DNA of 64,000 nucleotides from Streptomyces sp. Tu6071 (GTDB lineage: Bacteria; Actinomycetota; Actinomycetes; Streptomycetales; Streptomycetaceae), in the NCBI RefSeq assembly GCF_000213055.1, contig NZ_CM001165.1, forward strand, positions 6,312,945-6,376,944, in the 5' to 3' direction. Below, piece by piece: positions 16,141 through 21,236 of this stretch. The position numbers and the translations under genes are program-made. Each line of letters opens with the position of its first letter. Position 1 is the stretch's first letter. Below the pieces are notes generated by a model that did not search any database, was not told the origin of the DNA, and saw only the letters and a program-made list of their open reading frames with translations.

Positions 16141-16279
16141 AGCCCCTCCGGCGCTTGAGGAGCGGGGCCGGGGGCGGAGCCCCGAGGGGCACGCCCGGCG
16201 GGCCAGTCCCCAACCGTTCGGGCCGACCGAAATTCAGCCCCTCCGGCGCTTGAGGAGCGGGGCCCGGGGCAGAGCCCCG
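16141..16279. repeat. Two copies of a dispersed 27-bp intergenic repeat
   Basis: The 27-mer beginning AGCCCCTCCGGCGCTTGAGG and ending AGCGGGG occurs identically at 16141-16167 and 16236-16262. Each copy is followed by a short CGGGGC..GAGCCCCG hairpin. CCCCTCC pairs with the GGAGCGGGG end, so each copy can fold. Related copies lie at 17841 and 17878. They probably act as terminators or are mobile-like dispersed repeats of streptomycete intergenic DNA. Confidence 0.75.
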
Positions 16280-16381
16280 CGACGCCCCGCCCGGCCCGGA
16301 CCCACCCCCGAACACCCCTTTCGTACCGGTCTCGCGCATTCCGTTTGGGCTTTCGGGCCGTCAACGGGGAGACTGCCTTGC

Positions 16382-17803
16382 GTGACGTCCCGTATCCCGC
16401 GCGACTCCAGGCTCCGACTCGTCGGCCGCGCCCCGCTCGCGGCTCCCGTCCGTACGGTCGCGGAAGGGCGGCCACGCCGTCCCGCTCCCCGCCCGCCGGA
16501 GGGCACCCCGCCCCCCACCGAACTGGCCCGCGCGGCCCGCACCGTCCTCGCCGGCGCCGCCGCGCTCGCCCGCTGGAGCGCCGAAGCCCTCCGCCCCGCC
16601 GCCACCGGCCCCCTGCGCACCCCACCCCCGGCCCCCCGCGGCCACGAGGGCACGCTCAGCCCCGCCCAGGCCGGCCAGGCCGCGGCGGCGCTCGGCCTCC
16701 GGCCCGCCGAGGTGCGCGCCCACTGGGACGCCGCCCGGCTCGCCGGTCTCGTCGAGACCCACGGCGGCCACGCCCGCCCCGGCTGGCGGCTGCGGGCCTG
16801 GGACCGCGACGACATGGCGGTGCTGCGCGGCTGGGTCGCGCTCTTCGACGCCTGGTCGCTCTTCCACCCCGCGCACGCCGAGTCCGCGACCCCCATCGAC
16901 CCCACGGCCGTCGCCGAGGTCGTCGAGGCGATGCCGCAGCTCCTCTCGGTGCTCCAGCTCTCGGCCGGCACGGCCCCCCGCGAAGAGCTGCTCGACCTCC
17001 TCGACCAGCGGATCACCGAGCTGCGTGACGCGCGTTGCGAACTTCCCGCGCCCGGCCTCACCGTGCCCGCGCCGGCCCCGCTCCCCGAGTTGTTCGACTG
17101 GGCGCTCGACCGGCTCGCGGGCGTCGGCGCCCTCACGCTCCCCGAGGGGGACGGCGGGGACATCGCGCTCACCCCGCTCGGGAGCTGGGCGGTGTGGGTC
17201 AAGCTCGAACAGATCTGCGTCGCCGCGCAGTCCCCGGCCGGGAACATCGAGCAGTCCGCCGAGGACATGCTGCGCGGCTGCGTACGGCTGCGCCCCGGCG
17301 AGGCCCGTGCCGAGTACCGCGCCTGGATCGCCGCCCGCACCGTGGGCACCGCCGTGCAGGAGCTCCTCGACGCCGCGCGCGGCGACGACGCGCTGCTGCG
17401 CCAGCTCGCCTTCGAGGCGTTGCGCGCGGTCGGCGCCCCCGCCGAGCCGGGCGTCCGCGAGGTCAGCGCGGACCTGCCGCTGCGCCCGTACGCGCTCCTC
17501 TGGCTCGCCGAGCAGGAGGGCGGCGACGCCGAGGACGCGCACGCGCTCCTCACCCGCGAGGAGTCGACCTGGCTGTGGATCGACACGGCGGCGGCCCTCA
17601 ACGACCACGGCGACACCGAACTCCTCGTGCGCCACATCGAGGCCGCCCACCAGCCCACGATCCCGGCCCTCCTCGACGAGGTACGCGCCGCGGGCCACCC
17701 CCTCACCGTGCAGGTCCTCCTGGCCCTCGCGGCGGCCCATCCCGACCCGGCCCTCGCCAAAGCGGTCCGCAGAGCGGCCTTCCAGGTCCACACGGGGGGC
17801 TGA
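16382..17803 (+). CDS. Conserved hypothetical protein, helix-rich, possible winged-helix segment
   Basis: A 473-residue soluble protein that I do not recognise with certainty. Residues about 1-75 are basic and Pro-rich. Residues about 95-140 (TLSPAQAGQAAAALGL...RPGWRL) could form a helix-turn-helix or winged-helix unit. The rest is mostly amphipathic alpha helix, with the C-terminal 200 residues resembling HEAT-like helical pairs (LLRQLAFEALRAVG; LTVQVLLALAAAHPDPALAKAV). There are no membrane helices. GTG 16382 has GGGGAGA about 9 bases upstream. It is followed by two more intergenic repeat copies, then the ABC-F leader. Confidence 0.7.
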   Translation: MTSRIPRDSRLRLVGRAPLAAPVRTVAEGRPRRPAPRPPEGTPPPTELARAARTVLAGAAALARWSAEALRPAATGPLRTPPPAPRGHEGTLSPAQAGQAAAALGLRPAEVRAHWDAARLAGLVETHGGHARPGWRLRAWDRDDMAVLRGWVALFDAWSLFHPAHAESATPIDPTAVAEVVEAMPQLLSVLQLSAGTAPREELLDLLDQRITELRDARCELPAPGLTVPAPAPLPELFDWALDRLAGVGALTLPEGDGGDIALTPLGSWAVWVKLEQICVAAQSPAGNIEQSAEDMLRGCVRLRPGEARAEYRAWIAARTVGTAVQELLDAARGDDALLRQLAFEALRAVGAPAEPGVREVSADLPLRPYALLWLAEQEGGDAEDAHALLTREESTWLWIDTAAALNDHGDTELLVRHIEAAHQPTIPALLDEVRAAGHPLTVQVLLALAAAHPDPALAKAVRRAAFQVHTGG

Positions 17804-17840
17804 CCGGAACGAGGGTTCCCGTCCCGGCGGACCGCTCTCC

Positions 17841-17921
17841 AGCCCCTCCGGCGATCGGGGAGCGGGGCCCGCGATCCAGCCCCCGCGGCGGTCGAGGAGC
17901 GGGGCCCGGGGCGGAGCCCCG
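17841..17921. repeat. Two diverged copies of the 27-bp intergenic repeat
   Basis: Units at 17841-17867 and 17878-17904 keep the AGCCCC start and the GGAGCGGGG end of the copies at 16141 and 16236, with changes in the central bases. The second is again followed by the CGGGGCGGAGCCCCG hairpin. They lie between the hypothetical gene and the ABC-F promoter, where they may end transcription. Confidence 0.65.
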
Positions 17922-17960
17922 CGACCTCGGCCCGCAGAAAGGGCAGCCTTCGTCCCCGGT

Positions 17961-17973
17961 TAGACTGAAGCCA
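17961..17973 (+). promoter_or_regulatory. Leaderless-type promoter of the MALLLAH leader
   Basis: TAGACT at 17961-17966 matches the streptomycete -10 consensus TAGRRT. It is followed by exactly six bases and then ATG at 17973, so transcription likely starts at the A of the ATG. No clear -35 is visible. Confidence 0.55.
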
Positions 17974-17996
17974 TGGCCCTCCTCCTTGCGCATTAG
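17973..17996 (+). CDS. Seven-codon leader ORF (MALLLAH) upstream of the ABC-F gene
   Basis: The frame ATG GCC CTC CTC CTT GCG CAT TAG begins six bases after a good -10 hexamer and ends 59 bases before the ABC-F start. It therefore probably sits at the very 5' end of the mRNA as a leaderless reading frame. ABC-F genes are often controlled by leader-peptide attenuation responding to stalled ribosomes. Three consecutive leucine codons and an Ala-His end would suit such a sensor. This is inference; the frame is short enough to be chance, but promoter, spacing and neighbour all agree. Confidence 0.5.
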   Translation: MALLLAH

Positions 17997-18055
17997 CGCG
18001 ACGGCATTCCGCCCCGCCCCGCCCCCCGCCGTCCCACACGCCCAGGAGTACGTCC

Positions 18056-19654
18056 ATGATCACCGCCACCGGCATCGAGCTGCGCGCCGGCGCCCGCATC
18101 CTCATCGAGAACGCCAGCTTCCGCGTCGCCAAGGGCGACCGCATCGGCCTCGTCGGCCGCAACGGGGCGGGCAAGACCACGCTCACCAAGTGCCTCGCGG
18201 GCGAGGGCCAGCCCGCCGGCGGCACCATCACCAGCTCGGGCGAGGTCGGCTACCTCCCGCAGGACCCCCGTACCGGCGACCTCGACATCCTCGCCCGCGA
18301 CCGCATCCTCTCCGCCCGCGGCCTTGACGTGACGCTGCGCAAGATGCGCGAGAACGAGGAGCGCATGGCGAACGGGCAGGGCGCCACGCGCGAGAAGGCG
18401 ATGAAGCGGTACGAGCGCCTGGAGACCGAGTTCCTCACCAAGGGCGGGTACGCGGCCGAGGCCGAGGCCGCCACGATCGCCGCCGCGCTGAGCCTGCCGG
18501 ACCGCGTGCTCGGACAGCCGCTGCACACCCTCTCCGGTGGTCAGCGCCGTCGCATCGAGCTCGCCCGCATCCTCTTCTCCGACGCGGACGTCCTCCTGCT
18601 CGACGAGCCGACCAACCACCTCGACGCCGACTCGATCGTGTGGCTCCGCGACTACCTGCGGACCTACCGCGGCGGCTTCATCGTGATCTCCCACGACGTC
18701 GAACTCGTCGAGACGGTCGTCAACAAGGTCTTCTACCTCGACGCGAACCGCTCCCAGATCGACATCTACAACATGGGCTGGAAGCTCTACCAGCAGCAGC
18801 GCGAGGCCGACGAGAAGCGCCGCAAGCGCGAGCGCCAGAACGCCGAGAAGAAGGCGTCCGCGCTCAACGCGCAGGCCGACAAGATGCGTGCCAAGGCGAC
18901 CAAGACCGTCGCCGCGCAGAACATGGCCCGCCGCGCCGAACGCCTGCTCGCCGGGCTGGAGGACGTGCGCCAGTCCGACAAGGTGGCCAAGCTCCGCTTC
19001 CCCGACCCCTCGCCCTGCGGCAAGACCCCGCTCACCGCCGAGGGCCTCTCGAAGTCGTACGGGTCCCTGGAGATCTTCACGGACGTGGACCTCGCGATCG
19101 ACAAGGGCTCCCGCGTCGTCATCCTCGGCCTCAACGGCGCGGGCAAGACGACGCTCCTGCGCCTCCTCGCGGGCGTCGAGCAGCCCGACACGGGCGAGGT
19201 CGTCGAGGGCCACGGCCTCAAGCTCGGCTACTACGCGCAGGAGCACGAGACGCTCGACCCCGAGCGCACGGTCCTGGAGAACATGCGCTCCTCGGCGCCC
19301 GACCTCGACCTCGTCGAGGTGCGCAAGGTGCTCGGCTCCTTCCTCTTCTCGGGCGACGACGTCGACAAGCCCGCCGCGGTCCTCTCCGGCGGCGAGAAGA
19401 CCCGCCTCGCGCTCGCGACGCTCGTCGTCTCGGCCGCCAACGTCCTCCTCCTCGACGAGCCGACGAACAACCTCGACCCCGCCAGCCGCGAGGAGATCCT
19501 CGGCGCCCTGCGCACGTACAAGGGCGCCGTCGTCCTCGTCACCCACGACGAGGGCGCCGTCGAGGCGCTCTCGCCCGAGCGGATCATCATGCTCCCCGAC
19601 GGCATCGAGGACCTGTGGGGCGCGGGCTACCGCGACCTCGTCGCCCTCGCCTGA
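18056..19654 (+). CDS. ABC-F family ATPase (ribosome-associated type)
   Basis: A 532-residue soluble protein with two ABC ATPase domains and no membrane segments. Domain 1 has Walker A GRNGAGKTT (about 33-41), signature LSGGQRRR (about 159) and LLLDEPTNHLD. A charged linker rich in Arg/Lys/Ala (about 240-310) follows, with the QQQREADEKRRKRERQ helix. Domain 2 has GLNGAGKTT (about 357), LSGGEKTR (about 442) and LLLDEPTNNLD. ABC-F proteins bind the ribosomal E site and act in translation or antibiotic protection. No self-resistance role can be claimed because no biosynthetic cluster is adjacent. CAGGAG lies 8 bases before the ATG. Confidence 0.9.
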   Translation: MITATGIELRAGARILIENASFRVAKGDRIGLVGRNGAGKTTLTKCLAGEGQPAGGTITSSGEVGYLPQDPRTGDLDILARDRILSARGLDVTLRKMRENEERMANGQGATREKAMKRYERLETEFLTKGGYAAEAEAATIAAALSLPDRVLGQPLHTLSGGQRRRIELARILFSDADVLLLDEPTNHLDADSIVWLRDYLRTYRGGFIVISHDVELVETVVNKVFYLDANRSQIDIYNMGWKLYQQQREADEKRRKRERQNAEKKASALNAQADKMRAKATKTVAAQNMARRAERLLAGLEDVRQSDKVAKLRFPDPSPCGKTPLTAEGLSKSYGSLEIFTDVDLAIDKGSRVVILGLNGAGKTTLLRLLAGVEQPDTGEVVEGHGLKLGYYAQEHETLDPERTVLENMRSSAPDLDLVEVRKVLGSFLFSGDDVDKPAAVLSGGEKTRLALATLVVSAANVLLLDEPTNNLDPASREEILGALRTYKGAVVLVTHDEGAVEALSPERIIMLPDGIEDLWGAGYRDLVALA

Positions 19655-19763: not shown

Positions 19764-20054
19764 AACTCCGTCATCTGGGTGAGAACACCTCGTATCCGGG
19801 AGTGTCGGCGAGTGATATTCCCGTCCCCGCGAAGTTCCGCGACCAATTCCGCCCGCACCGCTCCCACCAGCGGTTTCCCCGGGTAATTCCGTGTGTGAAC
19901 ACAGCCGCGCGCGGACGGAACCGGGAATTCCACCCCTGCGGACCGCAGTGCTTTACCCAAAGCTCCTCCTGTGGACCTTGCCGAATGGGTGGCCAGGATT
20001 GCCGACAGGGGTGATCATGAGAGTCCAGAGCGCACTTCCCATGAGGAGGCACGG

Positions 20055-20279
20055 GTGGCCGAGACTCTGAAGAAGGGCAGCCGGGTGACCGGCGCCGCGC
20101 GCGACACGCTCGCGGCAGACCTGAAGAAGAAGTACGACGGCGGAGCGAGTATCCGTGCACTGGCCGAGGAAACGGGCCGGAGCTACGGATTCGTCCACCG
20201 CATGCTCAAGGAATCGGGCGTGACGCTGCGCGGACGCGGCGGAGCGACCCGGGGCAAGAAGACGAGCGGCGCGAGCTGA
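20055..20279 (+). CDS. gbn: Small helix-turn-helix nucleoid-associated protein Gbn
   Basis: A 74-residue basic protein starting VAETLKKGSRVTG. A helix-turn-helix spans about residues 28-55 (SIRALAEETGRSYGFVHRML), followed by a flexible basic tail RGRGGATRGKK. It closely matches my memory of S. coelicolor SCO1839, described as Gbn, a GATC-binding nucleoid-associated protein of streptomycetes. GTG 20055 was chosen because GAGGAGG lies 7 bases upstream; the in-frame extension to 19971 would give an atypical N-terminus. Confidence 0.85.
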   Translation: MAETLKKGSRVTGAARDTLAADLKKKYDGGASIRALAEETGRSYGFVHRMLKESGVTLRGRGGATRGKKTSGAS

Positions 20280-20417: not shown

Positions 20418-21236
20418 ATGACCACACCCGCCCAGGACACGGCAAGCCCCGCACCCGGCGACCTCGTCTTCGAGGAGGACGGCGTCCGCCTCGCGGTACG
20501 GGACGAGATCGCCGTCGTCACGCTGACCAATCCGGCCAAGCGGAACGCCCAGACTCCCGCGCTGTGGCGGGCGCTCGCGCGTGCCGGACGGGAACTCCCC
20601 GGCAGCGTGCGCGTCGTGGTGCTGCGCGGCGAGGGCCAGTCCTTCTCCGCGGGGCTCGACCGGCGTGCCTTCACGCCCGAGGGCTTCCCGGGCGACATCT
20701 CCTTCTTCACCCTGGCCAAGGCCCCCGAGGCCGAACTCGACGAGACGATCGCCTTCTACCAGGAGGCGTTCACCTGGTGGCGGCGTCCCGACCTCGTCTC
20801 GGTCGCCGTCGTCCAGGGCCACGCCATCGGCGCGGGCTTCCAGCTCGCCCTCGCCTGCGACCTGCGCGTCTGCGCCGAGGACGCGCGCTTCGCGATGCGC
20901 GAGACCAGCCTCGGCCTCGTCCCCGACCTCACCGGCACGAGCCCCCTCGTCGGCCTCGTCGGCTACGGGCGCGCGCTGGAGATCTGCGCGACGGGACGGT
21001 ACGTCGATGCGGCCGAGGCGGCCCGTATCGGCCTCGCCAACCTCGTCGTCCCCGCCGAGGCCCTCGACGCGGCCGTCACCGAGTTCACGAGCGCGCTCCT
21101 CGCGGCGCCGCGGAACGCGGTCAACGAGACCAAGGCGCTCCTCCAGGGCGCGGTCCACCGCCCCTTCGAGGAGCAGCGCGCCGCGGAGCGCCAGGCCCAG
21201 GGCCGCCGCCTGCGGGAACTGATGGGCGGCGAGTAG
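20418..21236 (+). CDS. Enoyl-CoA hydratase/isomerase family protein
   Basis: A 272-residue crotonase-fold protein. LTNPAKRNAQTPALW is the early active-site loop. VLRGEGQSFSAGLDRRAF holds the first oxyanion-hole block, and VQGHAIGAGFQLALACDLRV the second. GLVPDLTGTSPL is the later loop, where a hydratase glutamate would sit; an aspartate appears here, so hydratase versus isomerase activity is open. GGAGG lies 7 bases before the ATG. It stands alone between gbn and a convergent gene. Confidence 0.87.
   Translation: MTTPAQDTASPAPGDLVFEEDGVRLAVRDEIAVVTLTNPAKRNAQTPALWRALARAGRELPGSVRVVVLRGEGQSFSAGLDRRAFTPEGFPGDISFFTLAKAPEAELDETIAFYQEAFTWWRRPDLVSVAVVQGHAIGAGFQLALACDLRVCAEDARFAMRETSLGLVPDLTGTSPLVGLVGYGRALEICATGRYVDAAEAARIGLANLVVPAEALDAAVTEFTSALLAAPRNAVNETKALLQGAVHRPFEEQRAAERQAQGRRLRELMGGE

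Follow-up and report, generated by a model that had tools for sequence, protein, structure and literature searches.

The analysed window, a stretch of 64,000 nucleotides (64 kb) of Streptomyces sp. Tu6071, carries a gene for an ABC-F ATPase that is preceded by a very short upstream open reading frame (uORF), and the features of this region are collected in Table 1. The uORF, MALLLAH*, consists of seven codons and a stop (ATG GCC CTC CTC CTT GCG CAT TAG). Its ATG is separated from the −10 element by the six bases GAAGCC (17967–17972), and 59 bases lie between its stop codon (17994–17996) and the ABC-F ATG at 18056. A first-pass annotation of this DNA had described this arrangement, from TAGACT through the ATG at 17973 and the peptide MALLLAH to the 59-base gap, and the letters confirm it. 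From the spacing to the −10 element we infer an mRNA 5′ end at 17973, that is, a transcript that would begin with the uORF itself; the mean distance between the −10 element and the start site is 6.3 nt in S. lividans (PMC8079986).

Table 1 The ABC-F gene and its leader; positions are those of the window
Feature	Position	Strand	Basis or remark
−10 element TAGACT	17961–17966	+	six bases before the uORF ATG
uORF MALLLAH*, stop TAG, putatively leaderless; inferred mRNA 5′ end 17973	17973–17996	+	sequence and conservation
Helix P1, 5′ arm AUGG	17973–17976	+	predicted pairing with 18054–18057; consensus
Wobble base of Ala codon 2	17978	+	pairs with 18052 (predicted); top covarying column pair of 552
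Helix P2, 5′ arm CUCCU, anti-Shine-Dalgarno in the Leu codons	17982–17986	+	predicted pairing with 18044–18048
Helix P3, 5′ arm GCG	17988–17990	+	with 18039–18041 in duplex and consensus (predicted)
Inner hairpin P4, 5′ arm GACGGC	18000–18005	+	predicted pairing with 18028–18033, without covariation
Inner hairpin P4, 3′ arm GCCGUC	18028–18033	+	predicted, without covariation
ABC-F Shine-Dalgarno sequence AGGAG, predicted to be masked by the uORF	18044–18048	+	
ABC-F ATPase, ribosomal protection-like, 532 aa	18056–19654	+	NCBIfam

The ABC-F protein scores 398.4 against NF000355 (ribosomal protection-like ABC-F), above the cut-off of 380, and lies below the cut-offs of the EttA family (309.9 against 806.75 for TIGR03719, 311.5 against 599 for NF008775). 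Among solved chains, PoxtA is the closest in sequence; it belongs to the same drug class (phenicol/oxazolidinone) as OcrA. Mycobacterial OcrA (Rv1473) has been linked to linezolid and chloramphenicol resistance, and a primer for its M. abscessus homologue reads MITATD, where the window protein starts MITATG (PMC9159947, PMC13041422). Identity to the proteins of four genomes of family f4 is 63–67%. On these indirect likenesses, the window gene is perhaps the orthologue of OcrA (Rv1473). Downstream lies a gene for a small protein (19971–20279) whose helix-turn-helix match to Cbp1 is weak (33.5 bits against a cut-off of 140); a crotonase family gene comes next (20418–21236), and this order presumably also holds in the Rv1473 region. 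The long frame upstream of the leader (16250–17803) has no NCBIfam match.

The leader was compared across loci that comprised the 80 nearest named ones (78 Streptomyces, 2 Kitasatospora) and further genome loci encoding an orthologous ABC-F protein. All 130 loci of the genus set (L001–L130: 128 Streptomyces-type and 2 Kitasatospora, some strains twice, with 127 unique upstream regions) have a putative leaderless ORF of 7–10 codons, with its start 6 or 7 bases downstream of a TANNNT box. Among 40 loci from other genera of the family, 30 have a leader of at most 12 codons and ten do not, including all six sampled g3 loci; no ATG frame is found at the leader position in these six or in L140 of g2. 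Once identical upstream regions are removed, 155 unique leaders remain, of which 134 have exactly seven codons, and the stop codon is TAG in 151 and TAA in four. In the seven-codon leaders, codon 2 is Ala (GCC, GCA or GCT) in 133 of 134, and codon 7 is His (117), Asp (14), Gln (2) or Ala (1). The commonest peptides are MAILLAH (44), MAILLVH (22), MAFLLVH (11) and MANLLAD (7), beside MAVLLAH, MAVLLTD, MAVLSGH and others.

At the amino-acid level, then, M-A-x-x-x-x-[H/D]-stop is kept with the Ala wobble free, which is the kind of conservation on which the first-pass annotation had staked its reading. The comparison likewise supports its wider claim of a conserved leaderless leader ORF that is tied to the ABC-F gene and placed to control it. 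Our data do not lend support to its suggestion that the three tandem Leu codons are a sensor: a run of three Leu occurs in only four of the 155 unique leaders, and leucine sensing as the main idea was rejected. The conserved part is Leu-Leu written CTC-CTY. CTG, which makes up half of the Leu codons in the ABC-F genes, is absent at codon 4 from the 112 seven-codon genus-set leaders, and the CTC-CTY codons are better explained as a predicted anti-Shine-Dalgarno strand.

Two wobble positions that are unpaired in the predicted fold are kept as T: nt 9, with ATT in 72 of 73 Ile codons of the genus set, and nt 21, with CAT in 110 of 117 His codons of all seven-codon leaders; these two codons account for 1% and 3% of usage, respectively, in the ABC-F genes. 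The T-ending wobbles may represent slow codons or, alternatively, bases deliberately kept unpaired. Three Kitasatospora-type loci (L076, L077 and L164) have a different leaderless uORF, MAECHTHV, which ends 14 nt before the ABC-F gene and, by eye, could fold on itself (AUGGC with GCCAU). In L175 the ABC-F gene itself seems leaderless, and it seems so or nearly so in L134, L138, L184 and L192, with a −10 box 6–10 nt before the ABC-F start in these five loci. One genome has a second full ABC-F copy (G019:C1:128392-129984; 93% identity to the window protein), and its single leader element is at the other copy.

A TAGACT, TAGAAT or TAAACT box is present in 151 of the 155 unique carrier upstream regions, in a search that itself required a TANNNT box and a spacing of 6–7 bases to the ORF start. 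Further upstream, a conserved promoter element, GgAAAAgnggTTGCac, was seen across the window (17935–17966) and 126 unique genus-set promoters; 112 of the 126 have a hexamer beginning with TTGC, TTGG or GTGG that ends 8 nt before the −10 box, and the promoter of the window species has the GAAA and lacks the TTGC part. The element resembles the WblC site plus −35 region of S. coelicolor (GAAAWY, 3 bp, TKGMNN), but WblC-type promoters of that species differ in having 16–19 bp to the −10 element (PMC7157823).

The possibility of a chance short frame was rejected on conservation, uniqueness in the window, shuffles, background frequency and covariance-model matches. Both strands of the 64 kb window were scanned for ORFs of at most 12 codons with an ATG or GTG start 6 or 7 bases downstream of a TANNNT box, and the uORF was the only one. 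A narrow leader pattern with up to three mismatches matches once in the window and in none of 100 shuffles; it occurs once per genome in 91 of 150 genomes and is absent from the other 59, and its reversed control matches in none of the 150. Two such ATG mini-ORFs were counted in 976,630 nt of neighbouring sequence (both strands), a background that, being mostly coding, underestimates the frequency in intergenic DNA. In 40 of 41 genomes, a single copy was found with a covariance model built from the whole leader. For 33 of these genomes the ABC-F coordinates are among the matches listed, and there the copy shares contig and strand with the ABC-F gene; 32 of these copies reach the ABC-F start and one ends 87 nt before it. 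Searches of 17500–18500 with the Rfam covariance models gave no matches at E up to 1.

In the predicted fold, the ribosome binding site of the ABC-F gene, from the Shine-Dalgarno sequence through the start codon, finds its complement in the uORF RNA, a relation that the first-pass annotation had not foreseen. The partner of P1 (18054–18057) is CC plus the AU of the ABC-F start codon, and the consensus helices are AUGG:CCRU at the start codon, CUCC:GGAG and GYG:YGC; in the single-sequence fold of the window, P3 is replaced by a local stem, GCGC, of 17988–17991 with 17996–17999. Over the 125 unique genus-set leaders, the mean probabilities for the Shine-Dalgarno bases are 0.03 for being unpaired, 0.83 for pairing with uORF nucleotides and 0.14 for pairing with others. 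Synonymous recoding of the uORF with the codon usage of the ABC-F genes lowers the Shine-Dalgarno:uORF pairing from 0.83 to 0.32, the natural sequence being higher in 118 of 125 leaders.

Covariation points to the same register. Columns were counted in 72 unique rows from the 91 of 125 leaders with common length and spacing (34 dropped). When each uORF column was combined with each start-region column (552 pairs), mutual information peaked at 0.51 for nt 6, the Ala wobble, with position −4 (the next pair has 0.25), in agreement with the predicted helix register; the two bases are CG in 45 rows, AU in 16 and not paired in 11. In an alignment of 66 rows (six of the 72, whose start lies beyond nt 95, were dropped), 95.7% of the cells of the 11 long-range pairs are paired compared with 36–47% when slid, and their covariation score is above all 500 shuffles, under slide and shuffle controls that leave shared ancestry in, related sequences being prone to inflate covariation. 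Two weaker measures, pairs changed on both sides (3) and further pair types (6), were reached by 14 and 89 of 500 shuffles, respectively. RNAalifold recovers P1, P2 and P3 unprompted, not 6:−4 and 7:−5, and its covariation term is small, −0.33 kcal/mol. On the ABC-F gene tree there are four supported independent changes at nt 6, with a matching change at −4 in 2.7 on average and an opposite one in 0.0 (p = 0.25); this tree-aware test is not significant because the supported changes are too few, and none ran in the wrong direction. The inner hairpin GACGGC:GCCGUC, which the single-sequence folds predict, was rejected as a conserved part, with 79.8% of cells paired against 80.6% in shuffles and no covariation. 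The folding models and the alignment together argue for an RNA structure that masks the ABC-F binding site.

An alternative is that the sequence is kept as a masking strand only, with no meaningful translation of the short ORF. This is suggested by the retention of CTC-CTY where CTG codes for the same residue, and by the use of ATT, CAT and CTT against codon usage. It is nevertheless hard to reconcile with the near-invariant Ala2 (133 of 134), the middle C of which faces T, A or C and is unpaired, with the retention of frame, length and stop, or with the CAT/GAT before TAG, which is unpaired in the model and yet kept; we hold a pure RNA strand to be very improbable.

We consider it somewhat probable that the leader is a one-piece translational attenuator and that the ABC-F start site opens when a ribosome is on the leaderless uORF. 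The uORF, its place and its pairing with the binding site are supported by comparison of sequences, and the mRNA 5′ end, the translation of the uORF and the direction of the switch are our inference. The mRNA would begin at the AUG of the seven-codon uORF. With no ribosome on it, codons 1–6 would fold back onto the ABC-F binding site and little ABC-F protein would be made, whereas a ribosome that initiates at the leaderless AUG and then dwells within the uORF or on the stop codon would occupy the masking strand and leave the ABC-F site open; at every uORF codon, a ribosome would cover part of that strand. Slow or stalled early elongation would thus yield more of the very protein that frees such ribosomes. 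Timing may contribute, in that a fast ribosome would have left by the time transcription reaches the start site and the fold can close, and a slow one would still be present.

In the energy model, opening the ABC-F start site costs 8.8 kcal/mol on average, and 6.5–7.0 kcal/mol with a ribosome on the uORF (5.9 and 3.9–5.0 kcal/mol, respectively, in the window species); such a ribosome also raises the unpaired probability of the Shine-Dalgarno from 0.03 to 0.17–0.21, with the site still largely folded. As the opening cost falls only in part, release of the binding site is partial in the model. When segments of 60 leaders were held single-stranded, the opening cost dropped by 2.6 kcal/mol for nt 1–15, 2.0 for nt 16–30, 0.2 for nt 31–45 and 1.5 for nt 46–60.

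As to the signal, our guess, made by analogy, is phenicol/oxazolidinone-type stalling on M-A-x. Chloramphenicol and linezolid stall ribosomes at a penultimate Ala, and less so at Ser or Thr (PMC8987054). By this rule, ribosomes would stall because of Ala2 when codon 3 occupies the P site and, in leaders that have Ala6, because of it when codon 7 does. Since proteins in general often have Ala at position 2, Ala2 is put forward as a candidate signal only. A drug-free alternative would be an autoregulatory homeostat, in which slowing at the uORF end is resolved by the ABC-F protein, which would thereby lower its own synthesis. The MgtL leader and early acidic residues are targets of EttA in E. 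coli (PMC11282234), and the last sense codon of the uORFs is often one for His or Asp, with Pro-Asp-stop in family f17; the window protein, however, falls outside the EttA family by the NCBIfam cut-offs given above, and we judge the homeostat to be improbable.

Outside Streptomycetaceae, 77 loci with at least 180 nt of upstream sequence were available from a sample of 80 that is uneven (20 from f19 and 15 from f17) and from which three were dropped for lack of usable upstream sequence. An ATG mini-ORF is present in 24 of the 77, and one with ATG or GTG in 34. The leaderless short frames are family-specific: MMPVAD in 12 of 20 f19 loci; MRTPD, MHTPD or MRTPG in f17; MTSAAS, MRIAVS or MSIVVS in f18; MSSCT or MPRRTP in f28; and MLVARP, MLPAS or MSAPSS in f9. 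Predicted helices at single loci of other clades pair CUCCGUGGC with GCCACGGAG (L190), GCACUCCCG with CGGGAGUGU (L223) and AUGGCUG with CAGCCAU (L168), and that of L224 has 13 pairs and a bulge. In several other-family loci, the ABC-F gene itself seems to start near the 5′ end.

The natural uORF pairs better than shuffled versions over 20 clades (Fisher p = 8.5e-6), in a test for which the clades were hand-picked, as were the loci and their order, and the first-listed locus of each clade was used; individually, only four of the 20 loci have a pairing p below 0.05. Pairing of a uORF with its own binding site exceeds cross-clade pairing in 33 of 49 loci and in 14 of 20 clades, and is not stronger in six (two of the 51 chosen loci, L139 and L133, were dropped, having no leader of at most 12 codons). 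Pairing is weak in clades g5, g7, g10, g17, f18 and f28. By sequence and folding model, several clades show different uORFs and helices with the same logic.

These clades bear on the suggestion that the leader is a fixed throttle without a signal, which would hold ABC-F synthesis constantly low or couple it to ordinary uORF translation. The gene is core in the class, with some ABC-F match in 246 of 246 genomes and E below 1e-170 in 236 of them, and no clear sensing peptide is common to the families, both of which would suit a throttle. Matching uORF:binding-site pairs made of different sequences in several clades, as well as the conservation of Ala2 and His/Asp7, are more in keeping with a regulated device, and we regard the throttle as unlikely.

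For the families beyond Streptomycetaceae, we consider the following generalization possible but rather doubtful. In many actinomycete families, a core ABC-F protein of phenicol/oxazolidinone type may be controlled by a leaderless mini-uORF of about 5–12 codons that is both the sensor and the anti-ribosome-binding strand. Its peptide would be set by masking (Leu-Leu, Thr-Pro or Ser-Val, depending on the family) with the stalling context kept, and ribosomes slowed on the first codons would call up the protein that frees them. If the proposal is true, the element is a minimal attenuator, in which the sensor frame and the masking strand are the same 24 nucleotides from the first mRNA base, and leaderless initiation in actinobacteria is tied to the control of a class-core ribosome-protection factor. 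Searches for short ORFs that rely on a Shine-Dalgarno site would then be likely to overlook elements of this kind; the physiological trigger of the core ABC-F protein would also become directly testable with a reporter.

Control of OcrA in mycobacteria is ascribed, reportedly, to WhiB7, and the four f4 loci differ from the window in that none has a leaderless ATG or GTG uORF. Closest in design to the present leader are the mycobacterial polycysteine attenuators attributed to Canestrari et al. 2020, leaderless short ORFs on which stalled ribosomes are said to block a structure hiding the binding site of the next gene. Both share a leaderless short ORF at the mRNA 5′ end. The window leader differs in having no cysteine run, another target gene and only seven codons, and in that its uORF codons themselves are the predicted masking strand, down to the start codons; two adjacent Cys occur in none of the 155 unique leaders of the peptide list. 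The cat/erm translational attenuators unmask a binding site when a ribosome stalls on their short leader; unlike the window leader, these leaders are led by a Shine-Dalgarno sequence, have separate masking stems and belong to mobile resistance genes.

The uORFs of ABC-F genes usually act by transcription attenuation, as they do in resistance genes such as vmlR and lmrC (PMC10201436, PMC12421871). For the window leader we consider this mechanism highly improbable: a scan of 17400–18300, which depends on a T run and could overlook Streptomyces terminators, found no intrinsic terminator or terminator-like site, and the covarying pairs link the uORF to the binding site itself. As both a cysteine run and a terminator were looked for and not found, the window leader is set apart from the polycysteine and the terminator (vmlR/lmrC) types.

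Leaderless leader peptides are known in a streptomycete from S. lividans (leuL1, leuL2, trpL1, trpL2, ilvL, metL and thrL), but these differ in that they carry the regulatory amino acid, precede biosynthetic, transport and tRNA-ligase genes and are described as transcription attenuators; the list covers amino-acid genes only and is no test for an ABC-F leader (PMC8079986). A survey of titles and abstract openings, with most subscription papers outside its scope, found no report of the ABC-F leader.

Antibiotic-stalled uORFs ahead of Streptomyces ABC-F genes, like the present one in position, are those of tiaA (SCO0636) and are5sc (SCO6720) in S. coelicolor. They differ in not being leaderless, with 5′ regions of 194 and 232 nt, in their peptides (MVGDDDISG and MLV), in the terminator/anti-terminator model proposed and in the ARE5 subfamily of the proteins (PMC12421871). 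By eye, two other ABC-F genes of the window's genome, L253 and L255, both have a uORF of the tiaA type with a GTG start, VAGDDDISG in L253 and MVGDDDISG in L255.
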